From IMG/VR virus record IMGVR_UViG_3300013103_000027, positions 1 through 38,051 of that record: a stretch of DNA of 38,051 bases, one strand, 5' to 3'. Both the position numbers and the translations under genes were made by a program. Shown here piece by piece: positions 10,377 to 32,752 of this stretch; position 1 is the first letter of the stretch, and each line of letters starts with the position of its first letter. The DNA is from a virus. Below the pieces are notes generated by a model, which was not told where the DNA came from, did no database searches, and worked only from the letters and a program-made list of their open reading frames with translations.

Positions 10377-10790
10377 ATGGTTACAAAGATTAAAGCAAAA
10401 AAAGCAACTAGGGTAGAAAAACAGGCTAAAGCATCAAAAGCAAAAATTGAAGATGCAGTAATTGTAGAAAAGAAGGTATTTTTAACAGGTAAAGAAGTTG
10501 TTAAAAAATGTAAAGCAAAAATAGTTGAAATTTACATTGAGCCTTGGAAACAATATATTCGTGGTCAAGTTCCAACACCTAAAATTATTAAAAAGTTACG
10601 AGAGAAGTACAAAGATGCTGATGCATTCAATGATGCTTTGTTTCGTGCAAGTTTGATTGATTTTACAGAAGAAGATTTTGTAGAATTAGAAAAATCAAAC
10701 GGAATAAGATACCTTGAATTAATGACAGCTGTAATTTCTAATACTGATTTGTTCAGTAACGCATTAAAGAGTAAGAATATAAAAAAGTAA
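10377..10790 (+). CDS. Tail assembly chaperone, short form (gpG-like)
   Basis: 137 aa; lambda gpG is 140 aa. The basic, Ala/Lys-rich N-terminus (about 1-45) is followed by a helical domain ending in LFSNALKSKNIKK. These chaperones coat the tape measure before tube assembly. The last two codons before the stop form the slippery heptamer A-AAA-AAG (10781-10787) with TAA immediately after, in the right phase for -1 frameshifting into the downstream frame. The start has AGGAG 9 nt upstream. Confidence 0.8.
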   Translation: MVTKIKAKKATRVEKQAKASKAKIEDAVIVEKKVFLTGKEVVKKCKAKIVEIYIEPWKQYIRGQVPTPKIIKKLREKYKDADAFNDALFRASLIDFTEEDFVELEKSNGIRYLELMTAVISNTDLFSNALKSKNIKK

Positions 10791-11011
10791 TATCGCAACT
10801 TGATAACGACCCAGTGCTTTATGCTATTGCAATAATAGCCAAAGATGATGGAATTGCTATTAATGATGTTATAGATAGAGGGCACGATGATTTAGCAATA
10901 AGAGTTGCGTTAAAGATGAAGGAAGCGGAAACACCTGAACAGAAGCATCAGGCAGAGCAAGAGGCAAGGCAACAACAGCAACAGCCTATTACTTTTGCTA
11001 GTGAGAATTAA
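10377..11011 (+). CDS. Tail assembly chaperone, -1 frameshift product (GT-like)
   Basis: Slippage at A-AAA-AAG continues translation from GTA (10787) to the stop at 11009-11011, giving about 211 aa. The added 74 residues begin VISQLDNDPVLYAIAIIAKD and end in a Gln-rich tail. The only ATG in the added part (10814) has no ribosome site, so the frame is hard to express otherwise. A GCTATT/AATAGC hairpin (10823-10839) lies 36 nt beyond the slip site, rather far for a classical stimulator. In lambda the T extension recruits the tube protein. Confidence 0.82.
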
Positions 11012-16892: not shown

Positions 16893-18923
16893 GTGACGCA
16901 AATACAAAAACCATATGATGTAACATTCTCACCAAATCTGTCAGGACTAACGATAGCTGGTAGGAATGCTTCAGCAACAAGAATAACTGTTACAAATAAT
17001 GATAGTAGAGATATTCCAGAAGTAAGGATTAATGTGCTTAGAGCTGATTTAATGCCAAGCAATACAATGTTTGAGGCAGCAATAGTAAAAGATGGTGCTG
17101 GTGAGAAAGTAGTCACTGAGAAGTGGGTGCAAGCAAAAATGAGCACTGATGTAGCATATACACCTATTGATGATTGGAGCTCACCAATTGCATTTACATT
17201 AGCTTCATCCGAGACAAAAGCATTTGATATTAAATTAGTAATACCAGATACTATTACAGTGCAAGGCAAGATAAGCTTTTCCTTGCTTGTAAGTTTTCTG
17301 GCAAATACAGAGCCTAAAATAACTTCGATAAGTATAGATGGAACACCATTGCCTAATATCGTAGCTACAAATAACACAACATTAACTGCTACTATTGTAG
17401 CTGATGCGGGTGCAAATACAGCTATAACATGGACTAGTAGTAATAAGGATGTTTTTACTGTAAATAGTAGTGGAGTTGTAACAGCCGTAGATGTAGGCAA
17501 AGCAATAGTTACTGCAATATCATCTAATCCTACAATTTTTAATGGTGTATTTTTAACAGTATTACCAATGCCACCAATACCTAGTGAGTTTATTGCGTGG
17601 TATGATGCAAGCGATACATCTTCCATCATAGCAACAGGCAACAATGTTACACAATGGAATGATAAAAGTACTAATAATTATCATGCTGTTAATCATTTAA
17701 CTAATCCAACTACTAATGTGCAAACACTAAATGGATTAAATGTAATGCAATTTAACGGTGATTGGCTTGATATGCCACTTGCAACAATCCCAGCTGGGGT
17801 AGCTCAATACACAATAGCTGCCGTTTGGAAAGTATCATCAGGTGCTAGACGCACTATTGTATCGTTTGGAGTGGAGACTCCAGGTGGTGGCGGAACTTAC
17901 TACAAACAAATTTGGGCGCACACACAAGAGCCTGCTGGTGCTAATGTTGGGCACAGATGGATTGGTGATGATTTAAACAGTCCCGATGGCTCTATTGATT
18001 ATGCTACAGCAAATACAAGTATTCTTTCGTGGGATGGAACTACACGTAAAAGTATATTAAATGGATTGACATATTTTGATACACCAACTAATACTAAGAA
18101 TACAGCTTCCGATGCTGCAAGAATAGGTGCCACAACAAGTAGTAATGGTAATTATAATATAAATGGTGGTTATATCGCAGAATTAATTATTTATCATAAA
18201 GTATTAACAGCTTCCGAATTAGCAGATTTACAAACATATTTAAATACTAAGTGGGGTTTAACACCTTCTGCAAACACACCTGTTACTACTGGCATGGTTG
18301 CTTGGTATGATGCTAATGATGCTTCTACTATACATGATGGTGGTGGCACTGGAGTTTTATATCAATGGGATGATAAATCTGGTAATGCTTATAATGCAAC
18401 TCAACATACACTTTTGCCTACAACAGGTTTTGTTACTTTGAATAGTAAAAATGTAATAAGATTTAATGGTGATTATATGCTATTGCCTGTCCCTGTAATT
18501 CCTGATGGAACAAAGAGTTATACAATATGTGCAGTTTGGAAACCAGCTGGAACGAATGAAGCTTTAGTCCATTTTGGCTCAACTGGAATAACTAATCAAT
18601 CGGTAGGTATCCATTCTATTGGTACAGGTGTAAGGCAATATTGGTGGAATCATGATTTAGATGTTGTTACAAGCTATGATGCAAATTCTATTACTTGTAG
18701 TTGGGACGGGACTACAAGGACAACAATAATAGATGGTGTTAGTTATACTGATACACCGACTGGTAAATCTACTGCTACAGCGTTATCAGCACTAGGTGGT
18801 ATTCCTAATAATGGTTATATGTTAACTGGCTATATTGCTGAGTTTATCATTTATCATAGAGCTTTAACACCTACAGAGATTTTAGAAAATGAAACATATT
18901 TTAACAATAAATGGGGAGTATAA
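16893..18923 (+). CDS. Fibre protein: Ig-like (BIG2) plus two lectin/LamG-like domains
   Basis: 676 aa from GTG 16893, 7 nt behind AAGGAG. Residues about 1-140 form an attachment region, 145-225 a BIG2-like Ig domain (SSNKDVFTVNSSGVVTAVDV). Two paralogous concanavalin-A/LamG-like domains follow at about 230-455 and 465-676. Each opens with AWYDA(S/N)D, has QWxDKS, a SWDGTTR strand and ends NTKWG or NNKWG. Such domains bind glycans, so this is a strong receptor-binding candidate. The tandem copy points to an internal duplication. An upstream in-frame ATG (16791) lies in the previous gene. Confidence 0.75.
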   Translation: MTQIQKPYDVTFSPNLSGLTIAGRNASATRITVTNNDSRDIPEVRINVLRADLMPSNTMFEAAIVKDGAGEKVVTEKWVQAKMSTDVAYTPIDDWSSPIAFTLASSETKAFDIKLVIPDTITVQGKISFSLLVSFLANTEPKITSISIDGTPLPNIVATNNTTLTATIVADAGANTAITWTSSNKDVFTVNSSGVVTAVDVGKAIVTAISSNPTIFNGVFLTVLPMPPIPSEFIAWYDASDTSSIIATGNNVTQWNDKSTNNYHAVNHLTNPTTNVQTLNGLNVMQFNGDWLDMPLATIPAGVAQYTIAAVWKVSSGARRTIVSFGVETPGGGGTYYKQIWAHTQEPAGANVGHRWIGDDLNSPDGSIDYATANTSILSWDGTTRKSILNGLTYFDTPTNTKNTASDAARIGATTSSNGNYNINGGYIAELIIYHKVLTASELADLQTYLNTKWGLTPSANTPVTTGMVAWYDANDASTIHDGGGTGVLYQWDDKSGNAYNATQHTLLPTTGFVTLNSKNVIRFNGDYMLLPVPVIPDGTKSYTICAVWKPAGTNEALVHFGSTGITNQSVGIHSIGTGVRQYWWNHDLDVVTSYDANSITCSWDGTTRTTIIDGVSYTDTPTGKSTATALSALGGIPNNGYMLTGYIAEFIIYHRALTPTEILENETYFNNKWGV

Positions 18924-18926
18924 CAA

Positions 18927-19277
18927 ATGGCAATATCAACACCTTACCTTGATGCATTAATAACACAAGGTGTATCAGGACTACCAACAGTAGAAGTATT
19001 CGAAGAGATTAGAGCTGGCTTAAACATGGCTTACGGTGATGAAGCTGGCAGTGTAACATTGGCTGGAACATCAGCTGGTGTAGCAGTTACTATTGATGAT
19101 TTGCTTACAGTAAACTATGATGTATTTTACTGGGTTGAAAGAGACGCTTCAATGACTCTTGGTCAACAAGGTGAGATTGAAATAGTAAGAGATTCAAGCA
19201 CACAATTCACAGTAATCAATTCTGGTTCTGATAATGCTTCTAAATTATATTATCGAGTATATAAAAGGAGTGCTTAA
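18927..19277 (+). CDS. Small tail-fibre-associated protein, unknown
   Basis: 116 aa. No family recognised. The sequence has an N-terminal helix (TPYLDALITQGVSG) and then beta strands and turns, ending in KLYYRVYKRSA. It lies 3 bp after the lectin-domain fibre gene and its stop abuts the next start, so the three are co-translated. It could be a fibre chaperone or a small structural subunit. The AGTATAAC upstream is a poor ribosome site, which favours coupling to the gene before it. Confidence 0.55.
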   Translation: MAISTPYLDALITQGVSGLPTVEVFEEIRAGLNMAYGDEAGSVTLAGTSAGVAVTIDDLLTVNYDVFYWVERDASMTLGQQGEIEIVRDSSTQFTVINSGSDNASKLYYRVYKRSA

Positions 19278-20282
19278 ATGCGTGATGAATTTATAACAAT
19301 TAAATTAAAAACTATTGTAATGATAGCTATTCTTATTTGCTTGATATCTTCTATTAGTTATTGTGCAACACCTGTTAAAACAGTATTTTTAAATCATTTT
19401 GATACTACTAGTGTTACTGATATTACATTTACCAGAGATTGGCAGTTTTTGTATAATGCAACTTATAATACACCTGTGATTGATAATACTATTAAAAAGT
19501 TTGGTGAAGGTAGTTTATACTGCTCTGCTAATGCTACTGTTATTGATGATTATACTTTCCCATATTACATCAAAGGTGGTGTTCCATTAGGTGATACTAC
19601 ACCATTTGGTGATGGTGACTGGACATTAGAATTTTTTGTATATATTAAACAACGCACACCAGTGGCAGGTAACCCAAGTGTATTTGTACCTATTTATAGG
19701 GATAGAAACTCATATCAATCATCGGCTCCTGCTACTGCATATACAAGAGGCTTCCAAATTTATACAAATATTAACGATACTGGAGCAGGCAATCCTGTGT
19801 TGGTAATACGTGGCTTACATATTACTAACCCACCCTACGTTGCAACTCCAATTCAAAAATACATATCTGTAACAATATCTCAACCATACAATACATGGCA
19901 TCATGTAGCTGTAACAAAACAAATAACAGCACCTGGTTTTGCCACTTACCGATTTTTTTGGAATGGTGGCTTATATGGTTATATCTATTCAAAAACTGAT
20001 AATTACCCGATGGATTGGCTTAATGACCCAACAAACTGGCAAATACTTGGTGGGCAACTTGGTGGTGTGTATGATGCTGCATCTACTTATGATTATAATC
20101 AATGCCCAATGTATTTTGATGAAATGAGAATATCTCATGGTTGTAGATATTACACACACTTTACACCATCTACAGCAGAATTTGAATATCCATTATATAA
20201 TAACTTAACATTTAAACCAACTGGTGAAATAAAGTTTAAAGAAGATGGCGAAATTAAAATGAAATTTGGAGGAGGATTTTAA
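19278..20282 (+). CDS. LamG/concanavalin-A-like protein with signal peptide
   Basis: 334 aa. Residues 1-30 look like a Sec signal peptide: charged start, hydrophobic core IVMIAILICLISSI, then SYC-A as a plausible cleavage point. Residues about 40-300 form one LamG-like jelly roll (NHFD, GEGSLYCSA, WTLEFFVYIK, WHHVAVTK, YFDEMRIS), the glycan-binding fold of the LamG 3 type. The C-terminus repeats FKPTGEIKFKEDGEIKMKF, a short strand tail. AAAGGAG lies 7 nt before ATG 19278, which follows directly on the previous stop. A tail-gene neighbour with an export signal is unusual. Confidence 0.75.
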   Translation: MRDEFITIKLKTIVMIAILICLISSISYCATPVKTVFLNHFDTTSVTDITFTRDWQFLYNATYNTPVIDNTIKKFGEGSLYCSANATVIDDYTFPYYIKGGVPLGDTTPFGDGDWTLEFFVYIKQRTPVAGNPSVFVPIYRDRNSYQSSAPATAYTRGFQIYTNINDTGAGNPVLVIRGLHITNPPYVATPIQKYISVTISQPYNTWHHVAVTKQITAPGFATYRFFWNGGLYGYIYSKTDNYPMDWLNDPTNWQILGGQLGGVYDAASTYDYNQCPMYFDEMRISHGCRYYTHFTPSTAEFEYPLYNNLTFKPTGEIKFKEDGEIKMKFGGGF

Positions 20283-21493
20283 TGAAAAATTTAAAACTAA
20301 TATTACTTGTAATGGCATTATCTTTTGTTGTTATGTATATCCCTTTGCTTGATGCTCAAACGTTCCCAATGCCCGATAGGTTGTCACCTTACGATATTGC
20401 AGAGTGGACTCTTAGATGTGGCTTTATAGCAAGTGGAACAGTAGAGCCAACAGCAGTAGCTAATGAAGGGCAATTGTATTGGAATAATGCTACACCAACA
20501 GCACCTGTGTTATGGATAATGCACGATAATTTGTGGAGAAAAGGCACAAGCTCATATGCAAGTGGAACTATTCCACATGATAGTTTAGTTGGGCTTGATT
20601 ATGATGCAAGTGGACATACTGGTTTTGCTAGAGATACTGATATTCCTAATAACGCTAGCTTTACAATAGCAGGCTTAGGCAGTAAAGAATGGAGTAGCTT
20701 AGATGGAGCACCTACAAATGCTTCTTATACTTTGTTATTACTATCGGAACATAGTTTTAATTCATTAACAGATAAGCCAACAAGTGCAGATTATACTTTG
20801 CTTGGATTAGGTGAGAAAAATTGGAGTAGCTTAGATGGTGCACCAACAAATGCATCTTATACACTAGCTGGATTATCAGAACAAGATTTTAATAACTTAA
20901 CCAATAAACCTACTAGTGCAAGTTATACTTTGCTTGGATTATCAGAACATAGTTTTAATAGCTTAACTGATAAACCTACTAGTGCTGATTACACATTAAA
21001 TGGTTTAGGTGAGAAAAACTTCTCATCATTAGCAAATAAGCCAACTACATTAAGTGGCTATGGTATCACTGATGGTGCTTTAGATAGTGATTTAGAAGCT
21101 CATATGGATAACACTGTAAACCCACATGGTGCATCAATGACGCTTGGTGTAGGTGATGGTATAGGTGGTGTTGGATACTTTGCATCTGATACTGTTTTTA
21201 TAAAATACTTTGCGTATCTACCTTATCAAGCAATAGCAACAACAGTTGGTGTTGGAATTTACGGTGTAACATTCTGGGCTGATGATACTGCTAAAGTTGT
21301 TAAGATGTATTTAAATGCTGCTTGGCACACCATCGTAACAATGGATAGCAATGGCAAAACAATTGTAGATGTGCTTAACTTAACACCAGGCTCAGCACCA
21401 AGCACACCAGTAGAAGGTGATATCTACGCAAACAGCACTGACCATCATTTATACTTTTATAATGGCTCTGCTTGGGTGCAACTAGACAACTAA
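20282..21493 (+). CDS. Repeat-containing tail fibre with signal peptide
   Basis: 403 aa. An N-terminal signal-like segment (KNLKLILLVMALSFVVMYI, then LLDA-Q as cleavage point) precedes a beta head domain. Six 22-residue repeats follow at about 132-263 of the form LGEKNWSSLDGAPTNASYTL, a repeat class common in phage fibres as triple-helical shaft. The C-terminal part is beta and ends GDIYANSTDHHLYFYNGSAW, another fibre-typical segment. The ATG overlaps the preceding stop (TAATG), with GGAGGA upstream, so translation is coupled. Confidence 0.8.
   Translation: MKNLKLILLVMALSFVVMYIPLLDAQTFPMPDRLSPYDIAEWTLRCGFIASGTVEPTAVANEGQLYWNNATPTAPVLWIMHDNLWRKGTSSYASGTIPHDSLVGLDYDASGHTGFARDTDIPNNASFTIAGLGSKEWSSLDGAPTNASYTLLLLSEHSFNSLTDKPTSADYTLLGLGEKNWSSLDGAPTNASYTLAGLSEQDFNNLTNKPTSASYTLLGLSEHSFNSLTDKPTSADYTLNGLGEKNFSSLANKPTTLSGYGITDGALDSDLEAHMDNTVNPHGASMTLGVGDGIGGVGYFASDTVFIKYFAYLPYQAIATTVGVGIYGVTFWADDTAKVVKMYLNAAWHTIVTMDSNGKTIVDVLNLTPGSAPSTPVEGDIYANSTDHHLYFYNGSAWVQLDN
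20675..21070 (+). repeat. Six tandem 66-bp units in the fibre gene
   Basis: Unit starts at 20675, 20741, 20807, 20873, 20939 and 21005, each coding 22 residues. Units alternate between SEHSFNSLTDKPTSADYTL-like and GEKNWSSLDGAPTNASYTL-like versions, suggesting expansion of a 132-bp pair. Confidence 0.8.
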
Positions 21494-22179: not shown

Positions 22180-25100
22180 ATGAAATTTAAATTAAATATT
22201 TTACTAATATTTTTATTGCTTGTGTGTAGCTTTGCTAACGCTGAAGCTATAAAAGATGGTACTGCTGGTGGTGGCGGTGGCACATCAGTGCACAATAACT
22301 TAAGTGGTTTAAATGATGGTGATTATCAACATCTAACAGTAGCTGAGAAAGCTGCTTTAGTAGATGCTGCTGATATAAGTGATGCAGTTGCAGCTCATGC
22401 TATACTGAATGATACACATGGTTGTGATGTAATAGCTTCTCAAACTTACGTTGATGATGCTGTTGCTGGTGTAACAATACCAGACCATAATGATTTATCT
22501 GGACTTAATGTAGGTGATTATCAACATTTAACTGTAGCTGAGAAAGCTATTGCTATGGTTGTTAATTATGATGCTTTGTATAACACCTTTGTTGGTGATA
22601 ATGTTTTAAGTGTTATTACAACAGCTACCCAAAATGTTTTAATGGGTTACAATGCTTTAAGCTCTCTTACATCAGGTAGTTATAATACCGCTATTGGTGC
22701 AGCTGCGATAGCTTCGCTAACAACATCTGACTACAATACAGCTTTAGGATGGTTTGCAGGTTTTGGTAACAATCTAGGGCATTCAAATTCTATAACAGAT
22801 ACTAACATGACATTTGTCGGTGCTAATACTTCAAGAGATAATGTTACTGCAAACACTACACCTTTTACTAATTCAACAGCTCTTGGCTATGATGCAAAAA
22901 TAAGCAAATCTAATCAAATGGTATTCGGTGATGGTAACATTACTGAGAATAAATTCACTGGAAGTATCTTGCTTGATAGCGTAGCAATGCCTACTGTTAT
23001 TGATATTGATGATGCTGTTGCAATACATGCTGAAAGAAATGATACACATGGTTGTGATGTAATAGCTTCTCAAACATATGTTGATGATGCAATAGCTGCT
23101 ATACCTGTTGTAGATTTATTTGATGATGCTGGCAATACCTTTGTAGGTAAAGATACAATGGAAGCTGTAACAACTGCTTACGATAATACAATAATGGGTT
23201 ACAAAGCATTAGAAGCTTTATCAACTGGTAATAAAAATATTGCGATAGGTAGAGAAGCACTTAAAGCTACAACATATGGCTATCAAAATATAGCAATAGG
23301 GCAAACTACCTTACTCCAAAGTTTAGGTAGTAATGGTTGTATAGCGATAGGTCACGAAGCTGCTAAGCTAGGGACAGGAGGAACTAGTAATATTGCAATC
23401 GGCAAAAACGCTGGTAAAAATAGTGGTAGTAAAAATATTGCAATTGGAACTTCTTGTTTGGATGATGTAACTTCAGGTGGCGACAATATAGCAATGGGTA
23501 ATAGTAGCTTAGGTAAGTTAACCACTGGTATAAATAATACTGGTTTGGCTCCATACAGCTTAAATCAAGTAACAAGTGGTAGCCACAATTGTGGAATAGG
23601 TTACTTTAGCCTTGGAAAGCTAACAACAACAGATTATAATACTGCGATAGGTGATTTTGCAGGTTATGGTGATACAGTAGGTTATTCCACTAGTAAAACT
23701 GATACTTACATGACATTCCTTGGTGCTATGGCTTCTCGTGACTCTTCAATAGCTAATACTACTGTATTCACAAATTCAACTGCTCTTGGCTATGATGCAA
23801 GAGTAAGCAAATCTAACCAGATGGTATTCGGTGATGGTAACATTACTGAGAATAAATTCACTGGAACTATACTACTTAATGGCTCAGCAATTGGTACTGG
23901 TGGTGGTGTTGATACAGCAACAATAACAACAGCTATTGAAGCCAACGCTACTGATATCATAACAAACGCTGATGCTTTAACAGCTCATGCAGAAAGAAAT
24001 GATACTCATGGTTGTGATATTATAGCTTCTCAAACTTACGTTGATGATGCTGTTGCTGGTATAACAATACCAGACCATAATGATTTATCTGGACTTAATG
24101 TAGGTGATTATCAGCATCTAACTGTTGCCGAGAAAGCTGCTTTAGTAGATGCTGCTGATATTGCTGATGCTGTTGCAATACATGCTGAAAGAAATGATAC
24201 ACATGGTTGTGATGTTATAGCTTCTCAAACTTACGTAGATAATGCAATATCAGGTATAACAATACCAGACCATAATGATTTATCTGGACTTAATGTAGGT
24301 GATTATCAACATCTAACAGTAGCTGAGAAAGCTGCTTTAGTAGATGCAAGTGATATTGCTGATGCTGTAGCAATACATGCAGAAAGAAATGATACTCATG
24401 GTTGTGATATTATAGCTTCTCAAACTTACGTTGATGATGCTGTTGCTGGTGTAACAATACCAGACCATAATGATTTATCTGGACTTAATGTAGGTGATTA
24501 TCAGCATCTAACTGTTGCCGAGAAAGCTGCTTTAGTAGATGCTGCTGATATTGCTGATGCTGTAGCAATACATGCAGAAAGAAATGATACTCATGGTTGT
24601 GATGTTATAGCTTCACAAACTTATGTTGATGATGCTGATGCACTTGATTTAAAAATTGCTACATTTGAATATTATGTTGGTGCTACTACTGATGTTACAT
24701 TTACTGATGTTAGTGCAACCGAAATTACTATTAATACTTTTGATGTAAATTTAAGGGATAATGCAGATGGCTCAGGTTATCCTGTTAGCTATACTATCCC
24801 TTCTACTAGTTTAACTGTAGTAGTAAACGCTATTAACTTTATTACAGCTGATTATAACAGTGGCTCACCTATCGTTAAAGCAAGCACAAATAATGCTGAT
24901 GTTAATGAGAGTGATGTTACACCTGTTATCTTCTTATTTGTTGCTAGCGATGGCACAAAACATAGTGCTGTATTAGGTGAATTTGGTAATGGTTTAACTA
25001 ATAAAATACATGAAAGAATGTTACGCACAAACAAATATCAAAGAGAATCTGGCTTAGCTGTAACAATGGCTAATGCAGGTATTAATTTAACTTTTGATAT

Positions 25101-26034
25101 AAGCTCTGGCTACGTTTGGTTTGGTGCTACTAGACACGCATTAGAAGCGGTAGATTCTACTGTTGATTCTGTAAATTGCACAGCACCTGACGGCACACTT
25201 ACAGCTTGCACAGAGATGAATAATACACAATATTATAATGGAAGCACTTTAACTAATCTAAGCAATAATAGATACGCAGTAAACTGGATTTATCGTGGTA
25301 TAGAAGATGATAAAGAAGCTTATATCATGTTAGGTGAAGGTGATTATGATTTGAGTAGTGCAGAGCTTTCTAGCCCACCTGCTACACCCGCTATCATTAC
25401 AAGCCATTGTATGCTTGTTGCTAAAGTTATTGTGCAAAGGAATAGCAATACTGTTACTTCAAACCAAAGTGCTTTTAAACAAATATTCGGAATGAGCACA
25501 GCACAAACACATAATGATTTAAGTGGTTTAAATGATGGTGACTATCAACATTTAACAATAGCTGAAAAGGCTGCTTTAGTTGATGCTACTGATATAAGTG
25601 ATGCAATAGCAATACATGCTGAAAGAAATGATACTCATGGTTGTGATGTTATTGCTTCTCAAACTTATGTTGATGATGCTGTTGCTGCTATAAATATTAA
25701 TGATATAGCTGATATCGTAATAACTACACCTGATGATAAGCAAGTTTTGACTTATGATTCTGCGAGTGGTGATTGGATAAACGCTGTTAGTAATTTTGAT
25801 ACTGCAACTATTACAGCCGCTATTGAAATTAATACAGCTTCTATTACACAGAATATTGCTGATATTAGTGATAACACAAATGATATTGCACTTAATACAG
25901 CTTCTATTTCTGTAAACATAAGTGATATTAGTGATGTTACAGACGATACTGCTTTGAATACTGCATCTATCACAGCAATAATAAGTGATATTGGTGACAT
26001 ATCTACCGCTCTTGATGGAATTTTAAACCCATAA
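22180..26034 (+). CDS. Giant tail fibre with YadA-like head repeats and signal peptide
   Basis: 1284 aa, the largest gene here. Residues 1-22 are a textbook signal peptide ending in ANA-E. A 65-residue unit (NDLSGLNVGDYQHLTVAEKA) occurs near 37-102, three times in tandem at about 632-826 and again near 1109. Two stretches (about 130-270 and 315-560) carry YadA-head-like 14-residue repeats such as NIAIGREAL and NTAIG. The end is a Thr/Ile/Ser/Asp coiled coil (NTASITQNIADISDNT). A trimeric fibre is implied. There is no autotransporter membrane anchor and no S74 chaperone domain. Confidence 0.82.
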   Translation: MKFKLNILLIFLLLVCSFANAEAIKDGTAGGGGGTSVHNNLSGLNDGDYQHLTVAEKAALVDAADISDAVAAHAILNDTHGCDVIASQTYVDDAVAGVTIPDHNDLSGLNVGDYQHLTVAEKAIAMVVNYDALYNTFVGDNVLSVITTATQNVLMGYNALSSLTSGSYNTAIGAAAIASLTTSDYNTALGWFAGFGNNLGHSNSITDTNMTFVGANTSRDNVTANTTPFTNSTALGYDAKISKSNQMVFGDGNITENKFTGSILLDSVAMPTVIDIDDAVAIHAERNDTHGCDVIASQTYVDDAIAAIPVVDLFDDAGNTFVGKDTMEAVTTAYDNTIMGYKALEALSTGNKNIAIGREALKATTYGYQNIAIGQTTLLQSLGSNGCIAIGHEAAKLGTGGTSNIAIGKNAGKNSGSKNIAIGTSCLDDVTSGGDNIAMGNSSLGKLTTGINNTGLAPYSLNQVTSGSHNCGIGYFSLGKLTTTDYNTAIGDFAGYGDTVGYSTSKTDTYMTFLGAMASRDSSIANTTVFTNSTALGYDARVSKSNQMVFGDGNITENKFTGTILLNGSAIGTGGGVDTATITTAIEANATDIITNADALTAHAERNDTHGCDIIASQTYVDDAVAGITIPDHNDLSGLNVGDYQHLTVAEKAALVDAADIADAVAIHAERNDTHGCDVIASQTYVDNAISGITIPDHNDLSGLNVGDYQHLTVAEKAALVDASDIADAVAIHAERNDTHGCDIIASQTYVDDAVAGVTIPDHNDLSGLNVGDYQHLTVAEKAALVDAADIADAVAIHAERNDTHGCDVIASQTYVDDADALDLKIATFEYYVGATTDVTFTDVSATEITINTFDVNLRDNADGSGYPVSYTIPSTSLTVVVNAINFITADYNSGSPIVKASTNNADVNESDVTPVIFLFVASDGTKHSAVLGEFGNGLTNKIHERMLRTNKYQRESGLAVTMANAGINLTFDISSGYVWFGATRHALEAVDSTVDSVNCTAPDGTLTACTEMNNTQYYNGSTLTNLSNNRYAVNWIYRGIEDDKEAYIMLGEGDYDLSSAELSSPPATPAIITSHCMLVAKVIVQRNSNTVTSNQSAFKQIFGMSTAQTHNDLSGLNDGDYQHLTIAEKAALVDATDISDAIAIHAERNDTHGCDVIASQTYVDDAVAAININDIADIVITTPDDKQVLTYDSASGDWINAVSNFDTATITAAIEINTASITQNIADISDNTNDIALNTASISVNISDISDVTDDTALNTASITAIISDIGDISTALDGILNP
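24073..24657 (+). repeat. Three tandem 195-bp units in the giant fibre gene
   Basis: Units start at 24073, 24268 and 24463, each coding 65 residues from DHNDLSGLNVGDYQHL to a (V/I)TIP-type end. The third diverges near its end. Diverged copies lie near 22288-22490 and 25505-25690. Near-identity at DNA level suggests recent duplication or conversion. Confidence 0.85.
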
Positions 26035-26101: not shown

Positions 26102-27616
26102 ATGAAAAAATATATATTACTTGCAATACTTATTTGCTTGAGCTCTTCTGCTTTTGCTTTAACAATAGCGGAACAATTAACAGCTGTAAATCTTTGTAGA
26201 ACTGATATTAGAGATAGTATCATCAGTAAAGGTGTTGCTGTTCCATCTGATACTGCTTTTGGTGATTACGATGATAAGATTGATAGTATAGCTGGTGGTT
26301 TAACTATTAATAACATGAAGGAATTAGCTGGTGCTTCTTGCACAGAGACTATTGCTGCTGATGATATGGTAATAGTAAAACAAACATGGGCAACGATAGC
26401 TAATGATGCTTCGTCACGGGTTTATATGTCTGGTAGAGATATTGCAATGAGTAATGATGGTGATTACGTTGCTATTGTAAAAAACTCAAATATATCACCA
26501 GCTTATTTACAATCATGGAAATGGAATGGAACTACTTTACGCTACGAATCAACAAGTAATCCTGATATAGTGCCTTCAACTGGTAGTGCTTATTGTGCTG
26601 CTATGAGTGATGATGGACAATATCTAGCAATGTCTCATAGTGCATCCCCTTATATCTCAACATATAAATGGAATTCTGGAAATGATAGATATGAGAAAAC
26701 AGCTGATGTTGATACGTTGCCACCAGGTGCTTCTTTTGGTGTTTCTATGAGTAATGATGGAACAAGAATAGTTGTATGTTATCAAACGTCACCATACTTC
26801 TCTACCTACACTTGGAATAGTGGTAACAATAGATACGAAATAGAAACAACAGCAGATACAATACCAACTTCTTATCCTAAAAATATTGTTATATCTGGAA
26901 CTAATGGTGATTATCTAGCTCTCACAGGTGGCTCACCACACTACCTAACATCATATAAATGGAACACAGGTAATAGTAGATATGAAATTACAAACTATCC
27001 AGATGTGGGTGTTCCATTATCTTCAACTTTTGGTAATGGATTAGCTATGAGTGATGATGGCTCTCGATTAATATTCGCTGGCTCACAAGGAACTGTAACA
27101 ACTTATCAATGGGATGCTACAGGCACTCAATACGATAAAGATACTAATCAACCTGATTTAGATACAGTTACAAATAGAATAGGGCACATAAGAGTAGCAA
27201 ATGATGGTTTAACATTATTTGTTTCTTATGAATTTGATTCAAGCAATGATGAACCAATTAATCCAGTTATTTTAAAATGGAATTCTAGTGATAGCAAATA
27301 TGTTGTAGCACCATACCCAGATACATTACCTTCGGTAACAGAAGATATGTGGAGTATAGCTGTAAATGGAGCTGTTGATAGGTTTGTAATTGCTGGTGAA
27401 AACTACATCTACACATACAACCTTCCTGACACATACACAACAAAAGTGTCGAAGATAAATAATTCTACTAATTATACAGTGCCATTATATAACGATAGAT
27501 ACGATTGGATGTTAATGGGTACAGCTCAGGATGCTGGCAATAGTGGTGATAGTATTGGTGTAAATTCATTCATATACTTCACAGAAGATGCTGCTAGTTA
27601 CATAACAACACCATAA
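26102..27616 (+). CDS. Secreted-type beta-propeller protein, possible adhesin
   Basis: 504 aa. A standard signal peptide (MKKYILLAILICLSSSAFA-L) is followed by a short helix and then about six blade-like repeats of 45-50 residues between about 95 and 440. Each carries a version of AMSDDGQYLAMS followed by YISTYKWNSGNDRYE, a WD40/YncE-type propeller pattern. The C-terminus (about 450-504) is a separate small domain. Propellers bind partners or surface polymers, so this may be an adhesin or receptor-binding accessory, although none of this is proven. GGAG 8 nt before the ATG. Confidence 0.72.
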   Translation: MKKYILLAILICLSSSAFALTIAEQLTAVNLCRTDIRDSIISKGVAVPSDTAFGDYDDKIDSIAGGLTINNMKELAGASCTETIAADDMVIVKQTWATIANDASSRVYMSGRDIAMSNDGDYVAIVKNSNISPAYLQSWKWNGTTLRYESTSNPDIVPSTGSAYCAAMSDDGQYLAMSHSASPYISTYKWNSGNDRYEKTADVDTLPPGASFGVSMSNDGTRIVVCYQTSPYFSTYTWNSGNNRYEIETTADTIPTSYPKNIVISGTNGDYLALTGGSPHYLTSYKWNTGNSRYEITNYPDVGVPLSSTFGNGLAMSDDGSRLIFAGSQGTVTTYQWDATGTQYDKDTNQPDLDTVTNRIGHIRVANDGLTLFVSYEFDSSNDEPINPVILKWNSSDSKYVVAPYPDTLPSVTEDMWSIAVNGAVDRFVIAGENYIYTYNLPDTYTTKVSKINNSTNYTVPLYNDRYDWMLMGTAQDAGNSGDSIGVNSFIYFTEDAASYITTP

Positions 27617-27627
27617 AGGAGATACTA

Positions 27628-28092
27628 ATGAAAAACTTATTACTATTACTTTTACTTATTCCTAATGCTTTACAGGCTACTGGTGAAGTTGCTACTGTTG
27701 CAACCACTACTGCACCCATGAGTATGCAAGAAATGATACACAGTGCTATCTTTGCTCTTGTATCTGCAGTGTTAATCTTTATAACGAATTATGCCAAGGA
27801 TTATCTACAACAGAAGACAAATGAAGCTAAGCATCAACGTGGAATATCGGTTATCAAAGATAGCTTCTATTCTGCCATTGCTGATACTGCTTGTGATATT
27901 GATGTAACACTCAAAAATGCTAAAGCAAAAGAAACTTTTATATTGTGTTGGTTTAAAATTTCTACTGTTAGATTAAATCAATTAAGTGGGTTTAACAAAA
28001 TGAATATGCAGAATTGGGTAAATGTCCAGCAAACTATCTTTTTAGGAAAATATCTAGAAGATAAGAAAAATCGAATGGGTGAGCAATTTTAA
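27628..28092 (+). CDS. Membrane protein in lysis region, holin candidate
   Basis: 154 aa. A Leu-rich N-terminal signal or anchor (MKNLLLLLLLIPNALQA) and a second membrane segment at about 37-57 (MIHSAIFALVSAVLIFITNY) precede a cytoplasmic-looking charged helical domain. Size and membrane pattern suit LLH-type or class II holins, and it opens the group ending in the amidase. Whether the first segment is cleaved is unclear. If it is, the protein has one membrane span. AAAGGAG 6 nt upstream of the ATG. Confidence 0.5.
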   Translation: MKNLLLLLLLIPNALQATGEVATVATTTAPMSMQEMIHSAIFALVSAVLIFITNYAKDYLQQKTNEAKHQRGISVIKDSFYSAIADTACDIDVTLKNAKAKETFILCWFKISTVRLNQLSGFNKMNMQNWVNVQQTIFLGKYLEDKKNRMGEQF

Positions 28093-28104
28093 AGGAGAAT
28101 TATT

Positions 28105-28494
28105 ATGGGTTATATAACACTATTCTTTACTGCATTGTTGATAATTGAAAGATTAGCATCAATAGTAACTCGCTACACAAAAACAAAAAAAGATGATGAA
28201 ATGCTGGCTCAATACCGAAAAGCAAAAAGCTTTATATTCTCTCATGCCAATGGTGTGTTTGATATTGTAAAGCTACTTTATGATACGAATATTCTTAAAG
28301 GTGATGGTGCTTCTAAAATGGCAGAATACAAGAAGCAACTTAATGATGCCTACTTTAAAATTGAAGGTAAAACATTGCCTGATAACGTATTAGTAGAAGC
28401 TGAATTAGCAGCAGAAGGTATATATGCTGGAAAAAAGCTAGCATCCTTGGCACCACTAACGGCTTCAAGTCCAGCGGTAGAAGCATCGGAGTAG
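28105..28494 (+). CDS. Bitopic lysis-region protein, short form
   Basis: 129 aa. One N-terminal membrane segment (MGYITLFFTALLIIERLASIV) is followed by a soluble helical domain (about 35-105) and a low-complexity Ala/Ser/Pro tail. Position between a holin candidate and a coiled-coil membrane protein suggests a lysis role such as a spanin or holin accessory. Codons 109-111 read GGA-AAA-AAG, containing an in-phase A-AAA-AAG slippery heptamer at 28431-28437, so a longer product is likely. Confidence 0.6.
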   Translation: MGYITLFFTALLIIERLASIVTRYTKTKKDDEMLAQYRKAKSFIFSHANGVFDIVKLLYDTNILKGDGASKMAEYKKQLNDAYFKIEGKTLPDNVLVEAELAAEGIYAGKKLASLAPLTASSPAVEASE

Positions 28495-28613
28495 GTATAA
28501 ATCTAGATGGGGCTTCGTTTAGTTACAGAGCTAGAAATATTTTTGCAACAATAAATAGGAATTGGAAAAATAATAATACAGAAGCTGAGATAGGATATCG
28601 TGTAGATTTTTAA
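28105..28613 (+). CDS. Bitopic lysis-region protein, candidate -1 frameshift product
   Basis: Slippage at 28431-28437 would replace the Ala/Ser/Pro tail by 58 residues ending at TAA 28611-28613, giving about 169 aa. The new frame opens at 28404 and has no ATG, GTG or TTG before the overlap ends, so it cannot start by itself. Its sequence looks like beta hairpins (SIGVGINLDGASFSYRARN, IFATINRNW) and ends IGYRVDF, with alternating hydrophobics and a C-terminal Phe as in outer-membrane beta-signals. A spanin-like link between membranes is a hypothesis. A homopolymer sequencing error joining the frames is the main alternative. Confidence 0.5.
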
Positions 28614-28656
28614 AGCATAACAAATTAAAACAATATAAAGCATGGAGGATAAGGTA

Positions 28657-28959
28657 ATGAGCAAGTTAGAGGATATGAATGAGAAGCGGATAGACAAACT
28701 TGAAACGGAGATTAATGAAATGAATAAAACCATTCGTGTAGATATAAAAGAGCTTCGAGAAGACATGAAGGAAACGATAAAAAGCGGCTTCTCACAATGC
28801 AGAGAAATCATGCCTTTGAAATGCGAGGCAAACTTCAAAAAGAGTAAAGGCTTCTCAACTGCTTCCATTATAGGTGCTGGCACTGCTATATGTAGTGTGT
28901 TAACTGGTGTTGTAGTATTCCTAGTTAAATCTGGGATTTTAGATGGAATGCTCAAATAA
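28657..28959 (+). CDS. XhlA-like coiled-coil membrane protein
   Basis: 100 aa. Residues about 1-50 form a charged coiled coil (MNEKRIDKLETEINEMNKTI, KELREDMKETI). A membrane segment at about 72-94 (IIGAGTAICSVLTGVVVFLV) lies near the C-terminus. This arrangement is that of hemolysin XhlA-type proteins, which partner holins and endolysins. The start is ATG 28657 with GGAGG 8 nt upstream; an in-frame ATG at 28642 overlaps that site. It lies 11 bp before the amidase gene. Confidence 0.65.
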   Translation: MSKLEDMNEKRIDKLETEINEMNKTIRVDIKELREDMKETIKSGFSQCREIMPLKCEANFKKSKGFSTASIIGAGTAICSVLTGVVVFLVKSGILDGMLK

Positions 28960-28970
28960 AGGAGATAAAT

Positions 28971-29537
28971 ATGTTTACAAATTCTGATATAAATATAAAA
29001 CCAGCTATAAAGGTTGCTCTTGTAATCGGTCATTCGGCAAAAAAGCAAGGTGCTTGCAATGGTAAAGTTACAGAATTTAAATTTAACAAGAAATTGGTGC
29101 AAGATATTAAAAAGGAATTAAGTAATCAATATGAGATTGAAGCTGATATTGTTTATCGTAAAACGTATGAGAGCTTGCCTGACGACATTAATAAGCTTAA
29201 CCCAGATTACATAGTATCATTCCATTGTAATGCGTTTAATGGTGAAGTATCAGGCTCGGAAACATTATTCTGTATGCACAGTAAGAAGGGTAAAGAAATG
29301 GCAATGATAATGCAAGCTGCAATTGTTTCTTGCTTGAATCTTCCTAACCGTGGATGTAAGCCAAAAAGAGTATTTAATAGAGGTGGCCACCTTCTTGTGA
29401 ATACTAAGGCACCTTGTGTAATTGTTGAACCGTTTTTTTTGGATAATGATAGTGATTTAAAAATTGCTACCAAAAAAAGAGACCAACTCGTGGAAGCTAT
29501 AGCAGATGCCATTTCTGCGTTTGTAGTGATAGAGTAA
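28971..29537 (+). CDS. N-acetylmuramoyl-L-alanine amidase endolysin (Amidase_3)
   Basis: 188 aa, a bare catalytic domain. Zinc ligands and the active site of the Amidase_3 family are visible: H21 in VIGHSAK, E35, H85 in SFHCNAF, and E153 in VEPFFLDN. It cuts the bond between MurNAc and L-alanine in peptidoglycan. There is no signal peptide or cell-wall-binding domain, so it depends on a holin, which fits the membrane proteins upstream. It is the last well-defined gene before the terminators. GGAG 8 nt before the ATG. Confidence 0.9.
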   Translation: MFTNSDINIKPAIKVALVIGHSAKKQGACNGKVTEFKFNKKLVQDIKKELSNQYEIEADIVYRKTYESLPDDINKLNPDYIVSFHCNAFNGEVSGSETLFCMHSKKGKEMAMIMQAAIVSCLNLPNRGCKPKRVFNRGGHLLVNTKAPCVIVEPFFLDNDSDLKIATKKRDQLVEAIADAISAFVVIE

Positions 29538-29672
29538 ATGAAGAAGAAAAAGATTCAAGCAATAATAGAAGTAAAAGTAAAATGTAAACCTTGGTGCCAT
29601 GGTAATGAATGTCCACGTTTCAAGATGCTACAAAAATCATGTTGCAAAGAAGCTTGTTATTTCCAACAATAA
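29538..29672 (+). CDS. Cysteine-rich microprotein
   Basis: 44 aa, starting on the base after the amidase stop. A basic N-terminus (MKKKKIQAIIEVKVK) is followed by six cysteines in 27 residues (C-KPW-C, C-PRF, a CC pair, then C-YF), suggesting metal binding or disulfides. It lies between the amidase and two terminators and so shares the late transcript. The ribosome site is weak, making coupling likely. Cysteine pattern and lack of stops support it; function unknown. Confidence 0.5.
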   Translation: MKKKKIQAIIEVKVKCKPWCHGNECPRFKMLQKSCCKEACYFQQ

Positions 29673-29710
29673 AAATTAAATAAAATTTATCTATTTGTAT
29701 CTCATTTTAG

Positions 29711-29741
29711 CAGTTAGCATTTACATGTTAACTGTTTTTTT
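29711..29741 (+). terminator. Strong intrinsic terminator of the late transcript
   Basis: CAGTTAGCAT (29711-29720) pairs with ATGTTAACTG (29725-29734), ten base pairs with one G-T wobble, around TTAC. Seven Ts follow. Confidence 0.9.
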
Positions 29742-29762
29742 ATTACAAGCTTTCTAAGAATT

Positions 29763-29802
29763 TGCGAATGGACGCACATACGTTCCATCATTCGCATTTT
29801 TT
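29763..29802 (+). terminator. Second, tandem intrinsic terminator
   Basis: TGCGAAT (29763-29769) pairs with ATTCGCA (29790-29796); GGA-CG and CG-TTCC extend the inner stem with bulges. Six Ts follow at once. It backs up the terminator 22 bp upstream. Confidence 0.8.
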
Positions 29803-30418
29803 ATTTGGGGGTATAAAGTTCCGATATATTCTTAATGTTAAGCAAAAGTAAGAATTATTACTACGCGGCAAAAATCGTTTGTTTTTTTTGGTCCTAATAT
29901 TTTAGATATATTTTTTCTATAAATTTTTCTAAAGTACGTTTAGTAATATTTAGGTAGAGATATATATATCAAGCAAGTGAAAAATATCATTACTATATTA
30001 TATTTAGAGCTTTAAACATAATAACATATTACAAGTTCCGTTATTGAAATCATGCTTCCGTTATATTACGATGTTTTAAAAGCTAGGTAGATATATTTTT
30101 TCCTTGCTTGATAAAGGCATATTAATATAAAGAATATTAAGAAATTAAGACCTTCAAAACTGGTACAAAAGTTTCCTTTAGGACTTGGAATTTGATGCAG
30201 TGGTAGAGCGGGTTTGAAGCCATGTTGTAGTTGTGTTAAGTGTAAGATATTTGGCTGTTTTTGGCAACAAGGAACTTAGTATTAATGCTGGTTTGTAGTA
30301 TATTTAAGGGTAGGAATGGCTCAACTGTTAACGTCTCCACCGATTCCATTGATTTGATATTTTTGGCACCTAACTTGCTTAATTTTAAATTAACTATATC
30401 AAAAAGGGGAATTTTTAA
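29803..30418. other. Non-coding regulatory stretch before the HNH gene
   Basis: No gene seen; AT-rich with many stops. It holds a TCAAGCAAG copy (29969-29977) and an inverted copy CTTGCTTGA (30103-30111), each near a GTAGA(GA)TATAT stretch. TTCCGTTAT occurs at 30036 and 30056, exactly 20 bp apart, with TTCCGATAT at 29819. A weak promoter-like TTGCTT/TATAAA pair lies at 30105-30132. TTAATTTTAAATTAA (30379-30393) is nearly palindromic. This looks like a control region for the accessory genes. Confidence 0.5.
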
Positions 30419-31588: not shown

Positions 31589-32269
31589 ATGAATAAAACA
31601 ATACTTATCACCTTTAATAACCAAACGTATTTAGTAGCAAAAAATGAATTGGTAGCTACTATACGGAATATTAGAGAAACAGAAGACATGAGTAACATAT
31701 TATGTGAGCAGAATTACATCACTCAAGCAATCAACCTTCTGAACGAAATGGTTGGTATGGACGAGAATAAGGGCTTCGCTATGAATCTTGCTTCAAAAAA
31801 TATGGTTAATACAATACCAGCTTCTGAATTACAAGAGATATTTGAAGCTGAGCCTATATCAATAAAGAATATAAATATGCTACATGCTATTGATTTTGAT
31901 TGTTGTTATAAATTATTTAACAAGGACATGATGATTTGTGGGATAGTTGGTGAGAGCATCATCACACAAACCAATGAATATATTCCTGTAGTAGTAAGTG
32001 ACGATGGATTTAAGATAGCTTTTAATGATATTCCTGATGGGTTTATTCATGTATCAGAATTAGCTCATGCCGCTGTTATGAAGTTTGAGATGGATAAAGT
32101 TAAAGCTGATGCTAATGAAGCTGCGGAAATGGACAAATTAATGGAAGAAGCAGAAGAAAAGCCTATACCACGGAAAGCATGTAGGGCTGTTGATGCAGTG
32201 GCCAGTAAAGAGAATAAATCACTTGCCAATGATGATGATTGGGATACTATAAAAGGAATGATTTCGTAG
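31589..32269 (+). CDS. Hypothetical protein, acidic
   Basis: 226 aa. I do not recognise it. It has a beta start (TILITFNNQTYLVAKNELV), a helical middle and an acidic, Ala/Glu-rich C-terminal third (about 165-226) that looks flexible. There are no cysteine pairs or catalytic motifs and no membrane segment. It follows the HTH gene by 10 bp behind GGGAG, so it belongs to the same early-type operon. It could be a regulator partner or an anti-host protein, but nothing seen supports a choice. Confidence 0.65.
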   Translation: MNKTILITFNNQTYLVAKNELVATIRNIRETEDMSNILCEQNYITQAINLLNEMVGMDENKGFAMNLASKNMVNTIPASELQEIFEAEPISIKNINMLHAIDFDCCYKLFNKDMMICGIVGESIITQTNEYIPVVVSDDGFKIAFNDIPDGFIHVSELAHAAVMKFEMDKVKADANEAAEMDKLMEEAEEKPIPRKACRAVDAVASKENKSLANDDDWDTIKGMIS

Positions 32270-32290
32270 TTTAAAAGGGGGTATATCGTA

Positions 32291-32560
32291 ATGAGTATTA
32301 TTATCAGTGTAATGTTTTTGTGTGTAGCATTATTCATTGCTTGTGTTTTGCTTATAGTTTACTTATTATTCGGTGATATATTCCCTGATAGCTGGCTTAT
32401 TAAGCCTACTGAAGCTATTAGTAATGTTGATAACAGTATTCACATTAACATTAACAATAACACCAAGCTCAAGCAAGGTAAGAAGTTTAACTTTGAGATA
32501 TGTGAATATTGTGGCAAGCGTAAAATGATTAATGCAAAATGTAATGGATGCGGTGCCTAA
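32291..32560 (+). CDS. Membrane-anchored zinc-ribbon protein
   Basis: 89 aa. One membrane segment at about 2-27 (IIISVMFLCVALFIACVLLIVYLL), then an Asn-rich linker, then a C-terminal ribbon with CEYC and CNGC (about 72-88). The fused architecture suggests a membrane-bound sensor or adaptor. It starts after AAAAGGGGG at 32273-32281, and its stop directly abuts the next ATG. Several other genes here carry similar CxxC pairs. Confidence 0.7.
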   Translation: MSIIISVMFLCVALFIACVLLIVYLLFGDIFPDSWLIKPTEAISNVDNSIHININNNTKLKQGKKFNFEICEYCGKRKMINAKCNGCGA

Positions 32561-32752
32561 ATGCTACGATTAACATTAAAAAATTATGTTGCTGTAATGT
32601 CGTATCAAAATCCACAACATTTATTCGATGGTTTAATAATTGAAGTTGCAAATCATAAACAAAAAACAATAGATAAGATTCAAGCAAATATTAAATTATT
32701 GGCAGATAACCTAAATATTGTAACATGTTTAAATTGTAATAAGATTCTATGA
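32561..32752 (+). CDS. Small hypothetical protein with C-terminal CxxC
   Basis: 63 aa. Its ATG follows the previous stop with no gap, so translation is coupled. The body is helical (LFDGLIIEVANHKQKTIDKI) and the C-terminus ends CLNCNKIL, one cysteine pair, half of a usual ribbon. It may dimerise around zinc or be a shortened relative of neighbouring ribbon genes. No family recognised. Confidence 0.5.
   Translation: MLRLTLKNYVAVMSYQNPQHLFDGLIIEVANHKQKTIDKIQANIKLLADNLNIVTCLNCNKIL

Follow-up and report, generated by a model that had tools for sequence, protein, structure and literature searches.

A membrane protein encoded in the lysis cassette of this phage is very probably made as two isoforms through programmed -1 ribosomal frameshifting, as judged from sequence. 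The window (the whole stretch of 38,051 nt analyzed) is an IMG/VR record whose terminase, portal and head genes are of the lambda type. The majority of ribosomes would terminate at 28494 and release a 129-aa form comprising a single transmembrane segment and a helical domain, and a minority would slip on A_AAA_AAG and continue into a 169-aa form with a C-terminal four-stranded beta tail. Slippage is the presumed route, and the slip rate and the use of both isoforms are likewise presumptive. The short form would most likely act at the inner membrane in a holin- or releasin-like manner. The long form might regulate the inner-membrane step in a ratio fixed by the frameshift, or it might reach the outer membrane as spanins do, either role being plausible at somewhat below even chance. 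The features of the cassette were as follows:

27628..28092, + strand: upstream cassette gene, 154 aa, with a signal-like N-terminus and one hydrophobic segment, possible holin (sequence; weak PHROG holin match, E 0.063)
28105..28494, + strand: frame-0 ORF, 129 aa (ORF list; profile of the homologues without the window, E 3.8e-13)
28413..28418, + strand: AGAAGG, Shine-Dalgarno-like, 12 nt upstream of the slip site, possible stimulator by comparison with known -1 signals (PMC4066793)
28431..28437, + strand: slippery heptamer A_AAA_AAG, in phase with the frame-0 ORF (sequence)
28437..28613, + strand: extension in the -1 frame (58 codons and a TAA stop), predicted to form four beta strands, last residues EIGYRVDF (translation; coding score; match to a homologue-tail profile built without the window, E 6e-4; AlphaFold)
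28657..28959, + strand: next gene of the cassette, its product coiled-coil-like and with a membrane segment at the C-terminus (sequence; GGAGG before ATG 28657)
28971..29537, + strand: endolysin, N-acetylmuramoyl-L-alanine amidase (Amidase_3, E 7.3e-28; PHROG endolysin, E 2.6e-45)

The frame-0 protein consisted of an N-terminal transmembrane segment, a T-K-T-x-x-D-D motif and a helical domain, the helices of which were seen in a low-confidence AlphaFold model that was too poor for use. Codons 110 and 111 of its ORF are AAA (28432-28434) and AAG (28435-28437), which sets the phase as A_AAA_AAG. The initial annotation had described this site as having the heptamer and phase of the tail-chaperone slip site, and the sequence agreed: in the tail-chaperone pair (10377-10790, second frame ending at 11011), A_AAA_AAG lies at 10781-10787, immediately 5' of the frame-0 stop. 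AAAAAAG was found 21 times in the window against 19.2 expected, with no enrichment in this A-rich genome, so that the presence of A_AAA_AAG by itself says little. Between a stop at 28401 and TAA 28611-28613, the -1 frame was open and contained no ATG, GTG or TTG. The 58 open codons and the lack of an own start codon that had been reported were borne out by translation to 28613, and the predicted fusion product comprises 169 aa, of which 58 are encoded past the slip.

The -1 frame had a coding score of +24.9 bits over its 58 codons, compared with a 99th percentile of +8.4 for the wrong frames of the genes of this phage. The 39 codons past the frame-0 stop scored 0.61 bits per codon vs. a mean of 0.75 for the genes of this phage, and the coding score was weak in both frames in the 19-20 codon overlap. 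The extension occupied a gap of about 150 nt, otherwise unusual among the tightly packed genes. Chance does not account for the coding signal in the -1 frame.

Relatives of the gene were sought in 40 genomes of the phylum Riflebacteria and in two scans of viral contigs. The 40 genomes yielded four frame-0 relatives, confirmed by profile, and the contig scans added more, for a total of seven distinct homologues besides the window, belonging to three other phage lineages. Five were copies in Mu-like Riflebacteria phages or prophages with a common cassette (L054, the protein of which is identical in L062, L056, L046, L057 and L058), with Mu gp27 and Mu portal families among the neighbors of L054. 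L055 was a divergent Riflebacteria locus directly 3' of an endolysin-like gene, and L065/L066 were two identical high-GC loci, counted as one IMG/VR contig. Identity of the homologous frame-0 proteins to that of the window was 25-33%. No relatives came from viral contigs scanned for exact 8-mers of the frame-0 protein, tail or amidase, nor from blastn and tblastn against a phage collection, in which the tail alone produced only a chance match. Vibrio and Shewanella phages with related amidases were considered as a source of homologues and discarded, their lysis neighbors being unrelated. The portal relative G2 did not carry the gene.

Past the frame-0 stop, all seven homologues kept an intact, short, beta-rich sequence in the -1 frame, ending in F in every case except L055; the tail was neither decayed nor fused into frame 0. 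A profile built from six homologue tails, with the window excluded, was compared blind with 981 ORFs of the window, and its only significant match was the -1 ORF (E 6e-4). Downstream of the frame-0 stop, four Mu-like copies had a pN/pS of 0.19 in the -1 frame vs. 1.8-1.9 in the other two frames, in a comparison of pairs that share branches and that is no formal test. The tail of the Mu-like group is, on these ratios, under purifying selection. The earlier remark that the -1 frame reads like real protein was thus supported by its coding score, by the blind profile match and by selection in the Mu-like group. Homology of the tails, their protein-coding nature and their retention in the -1 frame across four phage lineages are strongly supported by these comparisons.

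The homologues differed from the window in the slip site. Five of them had an in-phase A_AAC_CCT, and L046 and L065 had the tetramer C_CCT alone; the -1 peptide right after the slip was PSIEPG, PSVEPG, PSASPG or PSARPG, depending on the lineage. In E. coli, A_AAA_AAG belongs to the group of most efficient -1 motifs, and ribosomes also slip on the tetramer C_CC.U (PMC4066793). Five of the seven homologues (four Mu-like copies and L065) had a stem-loop whose main helix started 5-7 nt past the slip, with z of -2.0 to -3.8 over 45 nt in the Mu-like copies and about -3 in L065; covariation in the stem amounted to a single pair and was not significant. No downstream RNA structure was found at the slip site of the window, which sits about ten codons 5' of the aligned site of the homologues. 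This shifted position and the different motifs suggest that slip site and stimulator changed and product architecture was kept. Regarding conservation of the slip site, the position of the tail in the -1 frame was therefore maintained, but the heptamer A_AAA_AAG was specific to the window phage.

This conserved -1 arrangement disfavors a sequencing error, decay or a separately started tail. The initial annotation had named a missing or extra A as the chief alternative, and an error in the base count of the A-run, or a frameshift that arose recently by mutation, could have split one ordinary gene, since homopolymer runs are prone to error; this was rejected as very improbable, because the same -1 relation recurred in independently assembled homologues with no homopolymer at the junction, and purifying selection on the Mu-like tails also argues against it. 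That the tail is a separate small ORF, re-initiated at a start codon overlapping the frame-0 stop, is improbable as well. Such an origin would agree with the GTG that overlaps the frame-0 TGA in L054, L046 and L058 and with the TTG that overlaps it in L056, and a GTG, TTG or TTG/ATG in the tail frame was usable in principle in four of the eight genes. However, the tail frame had no start codon in the window, L055 or L057, the last having GTA at the corresponding position, and in L065 its sole start was an ATG inside the beta domain. The -1 peptide upstream of the putative GTG was, moreover, itself conserved (PSxxPG). Frameshifting thus remains the preferred route to the tail.

The gene lies in a lysis cassette with an amidase endolysin nearby, in agreement with its earlier labeling as a lysis protein, and it adjoined the endolysin in three of the four lineages; no endolysin was found for the L065 phage. 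None of the eight frame-0 members matched a Pfam or PHROG holin, and no match to a releasin or spanin family was found for these proteins. The product of 28657..28959 had no confident family match. Its true start is probably ATG 28657 rather than 28642, because GGAGG falls within the first codons of the longer call. The portal relatives of the phage were one uncultured rumen genome and one MAG named Candidatus Riflebacteria, which point to a host in the phylum Riflebacteria, an assignment that rests on MAG contigs.

The transmembrane segment and the TKTxxDD motif (28105-28240 in the window, and homologues) gave weak matches to PHROG 402, 2738 and 9685, small phage families of unknown function that may share the same membrane module. 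Elsewhere in the window, comparison with a 97% identical relative (G1, IMGVR 3300021512_000010), the sequence of which stops before the lysis genes, showed both frames of the tail-chaperone pair (10377-11011) to be 100% identical, as expected of a lambda G/GT-type frameshift. Identity to G1 fell to about 74-75% at 17686-21491, which was partly unalignable, with flanks at 97-99%; this looks like recombination within tail genes. The 1284-aa tail-spike-like protein at 22180-26034 contained several internal repeats, visible as many staggered self-like matches to G1.

The AlphaFold model of the tail had four antiparallel strands, with pLDDT of about 80 in the strands. The strands were amphipathic, and four strands cannot close a barrel alone. 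Searches of Pfam, PDB sequences and Foldseek with the tail gave no convincing match. A C-terminal beta-signal, taken as polar-x-G-x-x-hydrophobic-x-hydrophobic (consensus from PMC10945584), was present in six of the eight genes and in two of the four lineages, being absent in L055 and L065, and occurred in none of 167 long ORFs. The amphipathic beta tail with an outer-membrane-like C-terminus was in this way supported by the predicted strands and by the pattern match. No cleavable signal was apparent in the proteins. No protein had a net positive charge before the transmembrane segment (0/8) and all had basic residues after it (8/8), a distribution which in a simple charge-based computation predicts N-out/C-in topology with a cytoplasmic C-terminus for all eight. 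The proposal that the protein joins both membranes was not sustained, given the cytoplasmic tail predicted from charges in all eight and the beta-signal missing in two of the four lineages. A simple pattern scan for a lipobox gave no candidate in the window, the protein itself included, and nothing in the Mu-like record G049 but one implausible TTG ORF. In the Mu-like copies, the gene was flanked on one side by the endolysin and on the other by a small membrane protein, itself located upstream of Mu gp27, and the corresponding position of Mu holds the spanins gp23/gp23.1 (PMC9239132).

Two readings of the long isoform were weighed. It may be an unorthodox spanin, with its N-terminus in the inner membrane and its C-terminal strands, perhaps from several subunits, inserting in or binding and disrupting the outer membrane; this is a real possibility, though short of an even chance. 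The beta-signal confined to tails, the four amphipathic strands, the gp23/gp23.1 slot and the dearth of lipobox proteins in the window and G049 are consistent with it, whereas the charge-predicted topology, the two genes without a beta-signal and the lack of a fold match for the tail speak against it, and the lipobox result comes from simple pattern matching. With a comparable chance, the tail may be cytoplasmic and the long isoform a minor regulator of lysis timing or a holder of the endolysin, present in a frameshift-fixed ratio to the short form. The predicted N-out/C-in topology, like that of the Mu releasin gp25 (PMC9239132), the fixed minority of long form that frameshifting naturally yields (PMC5009743) and the analogy to the balance of G and GT in lambda tails agree with a regulator, but the beta-signal-like C-termini of two lineages would be left without a reason and no binding partner is known. 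A broader scheme, in which the frame-0 product opens the inner membrane, the beta strands of the frameshifted minority disrupt the outer membrane and the proportion of holin-like and spanin-like protein is set by the rate of slippage, is doubtful.

As in lambda G/GT, slippage into the -1 frame shortly before frame 0 ends would give a minority of products an extra C-terminal domain, and the tail-chaperone pair of the window phage itself uses an identical A_AAA_AAG; unlike in G/GT, the gene is in a lysis cassette, encodes a membrane protein of unrelated sequence, gains another kind of domain and has homologues that slip at A_AAC_CCT or C_CCT. The two-component spanins lambda Rz/Rz1 and Mu gp23/gp23.1 share with it the cassette position (in the Mu-like phages) and a membrane-anchored protein with partner sequence in another, overlapping frame. 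It differs from them in having no lipobox and no separate o-spanin gene, in a second frame that is an extension rather than an embedded gene, and in the opposite predicted topology. T1 gp11, a unimolecular spanin, is similarly one chain for which contact with both membranes has been proposed, and it has beta structure, but gp11 is a lipoprotein of the outer membrane and has its transmembrane segment at the C-terminus, whereas the protein described here carries no lipoprotein signal and has an N-terminal transmembrane segment and a C-terminal beta part. The Mu releasin gp25 (DUF2730) resembles the frame-0 protein in its short N-terminus, single transmembrane segment, predicted N-out/C-in topology and lysis-cassette location. 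No sequence similarity to gp25 was found, however, in the Mu-like homologues the place of gp25 is taken by another small membrane protein, and PMC9239132 describes no frameshift isoform of gp25.

Two observations concern L006, the record of G2, the relative without the gene. A possible two-component spanin is encoded at 32168-32591 by a pair of ORFs that overlap in different frames, both having a hydrophobic segment at the N-terminus and coiled-coil-like sequence. At 27188-30342, a reverse transcriptase ORF beside two near-copies of a WWLRAVASS-type sequence is likely a diversity-generating retroelement of this Riflebacteria phage.

Tail chaperones supply most of the known cases of programmed frameshifting in tailed phages, and no report of it in a tailed-phage holin or spanin was found in open-access text. 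Gene callers miss the tail, so further cases may be hidden. If true, a frameshifted lysis gene kept in several phage lineages associated with an uncultured diderm phylum would represent a novel means of tuning lysis and perhaps a novel outer-membrane lysis protein in phages with no recognized spanin.
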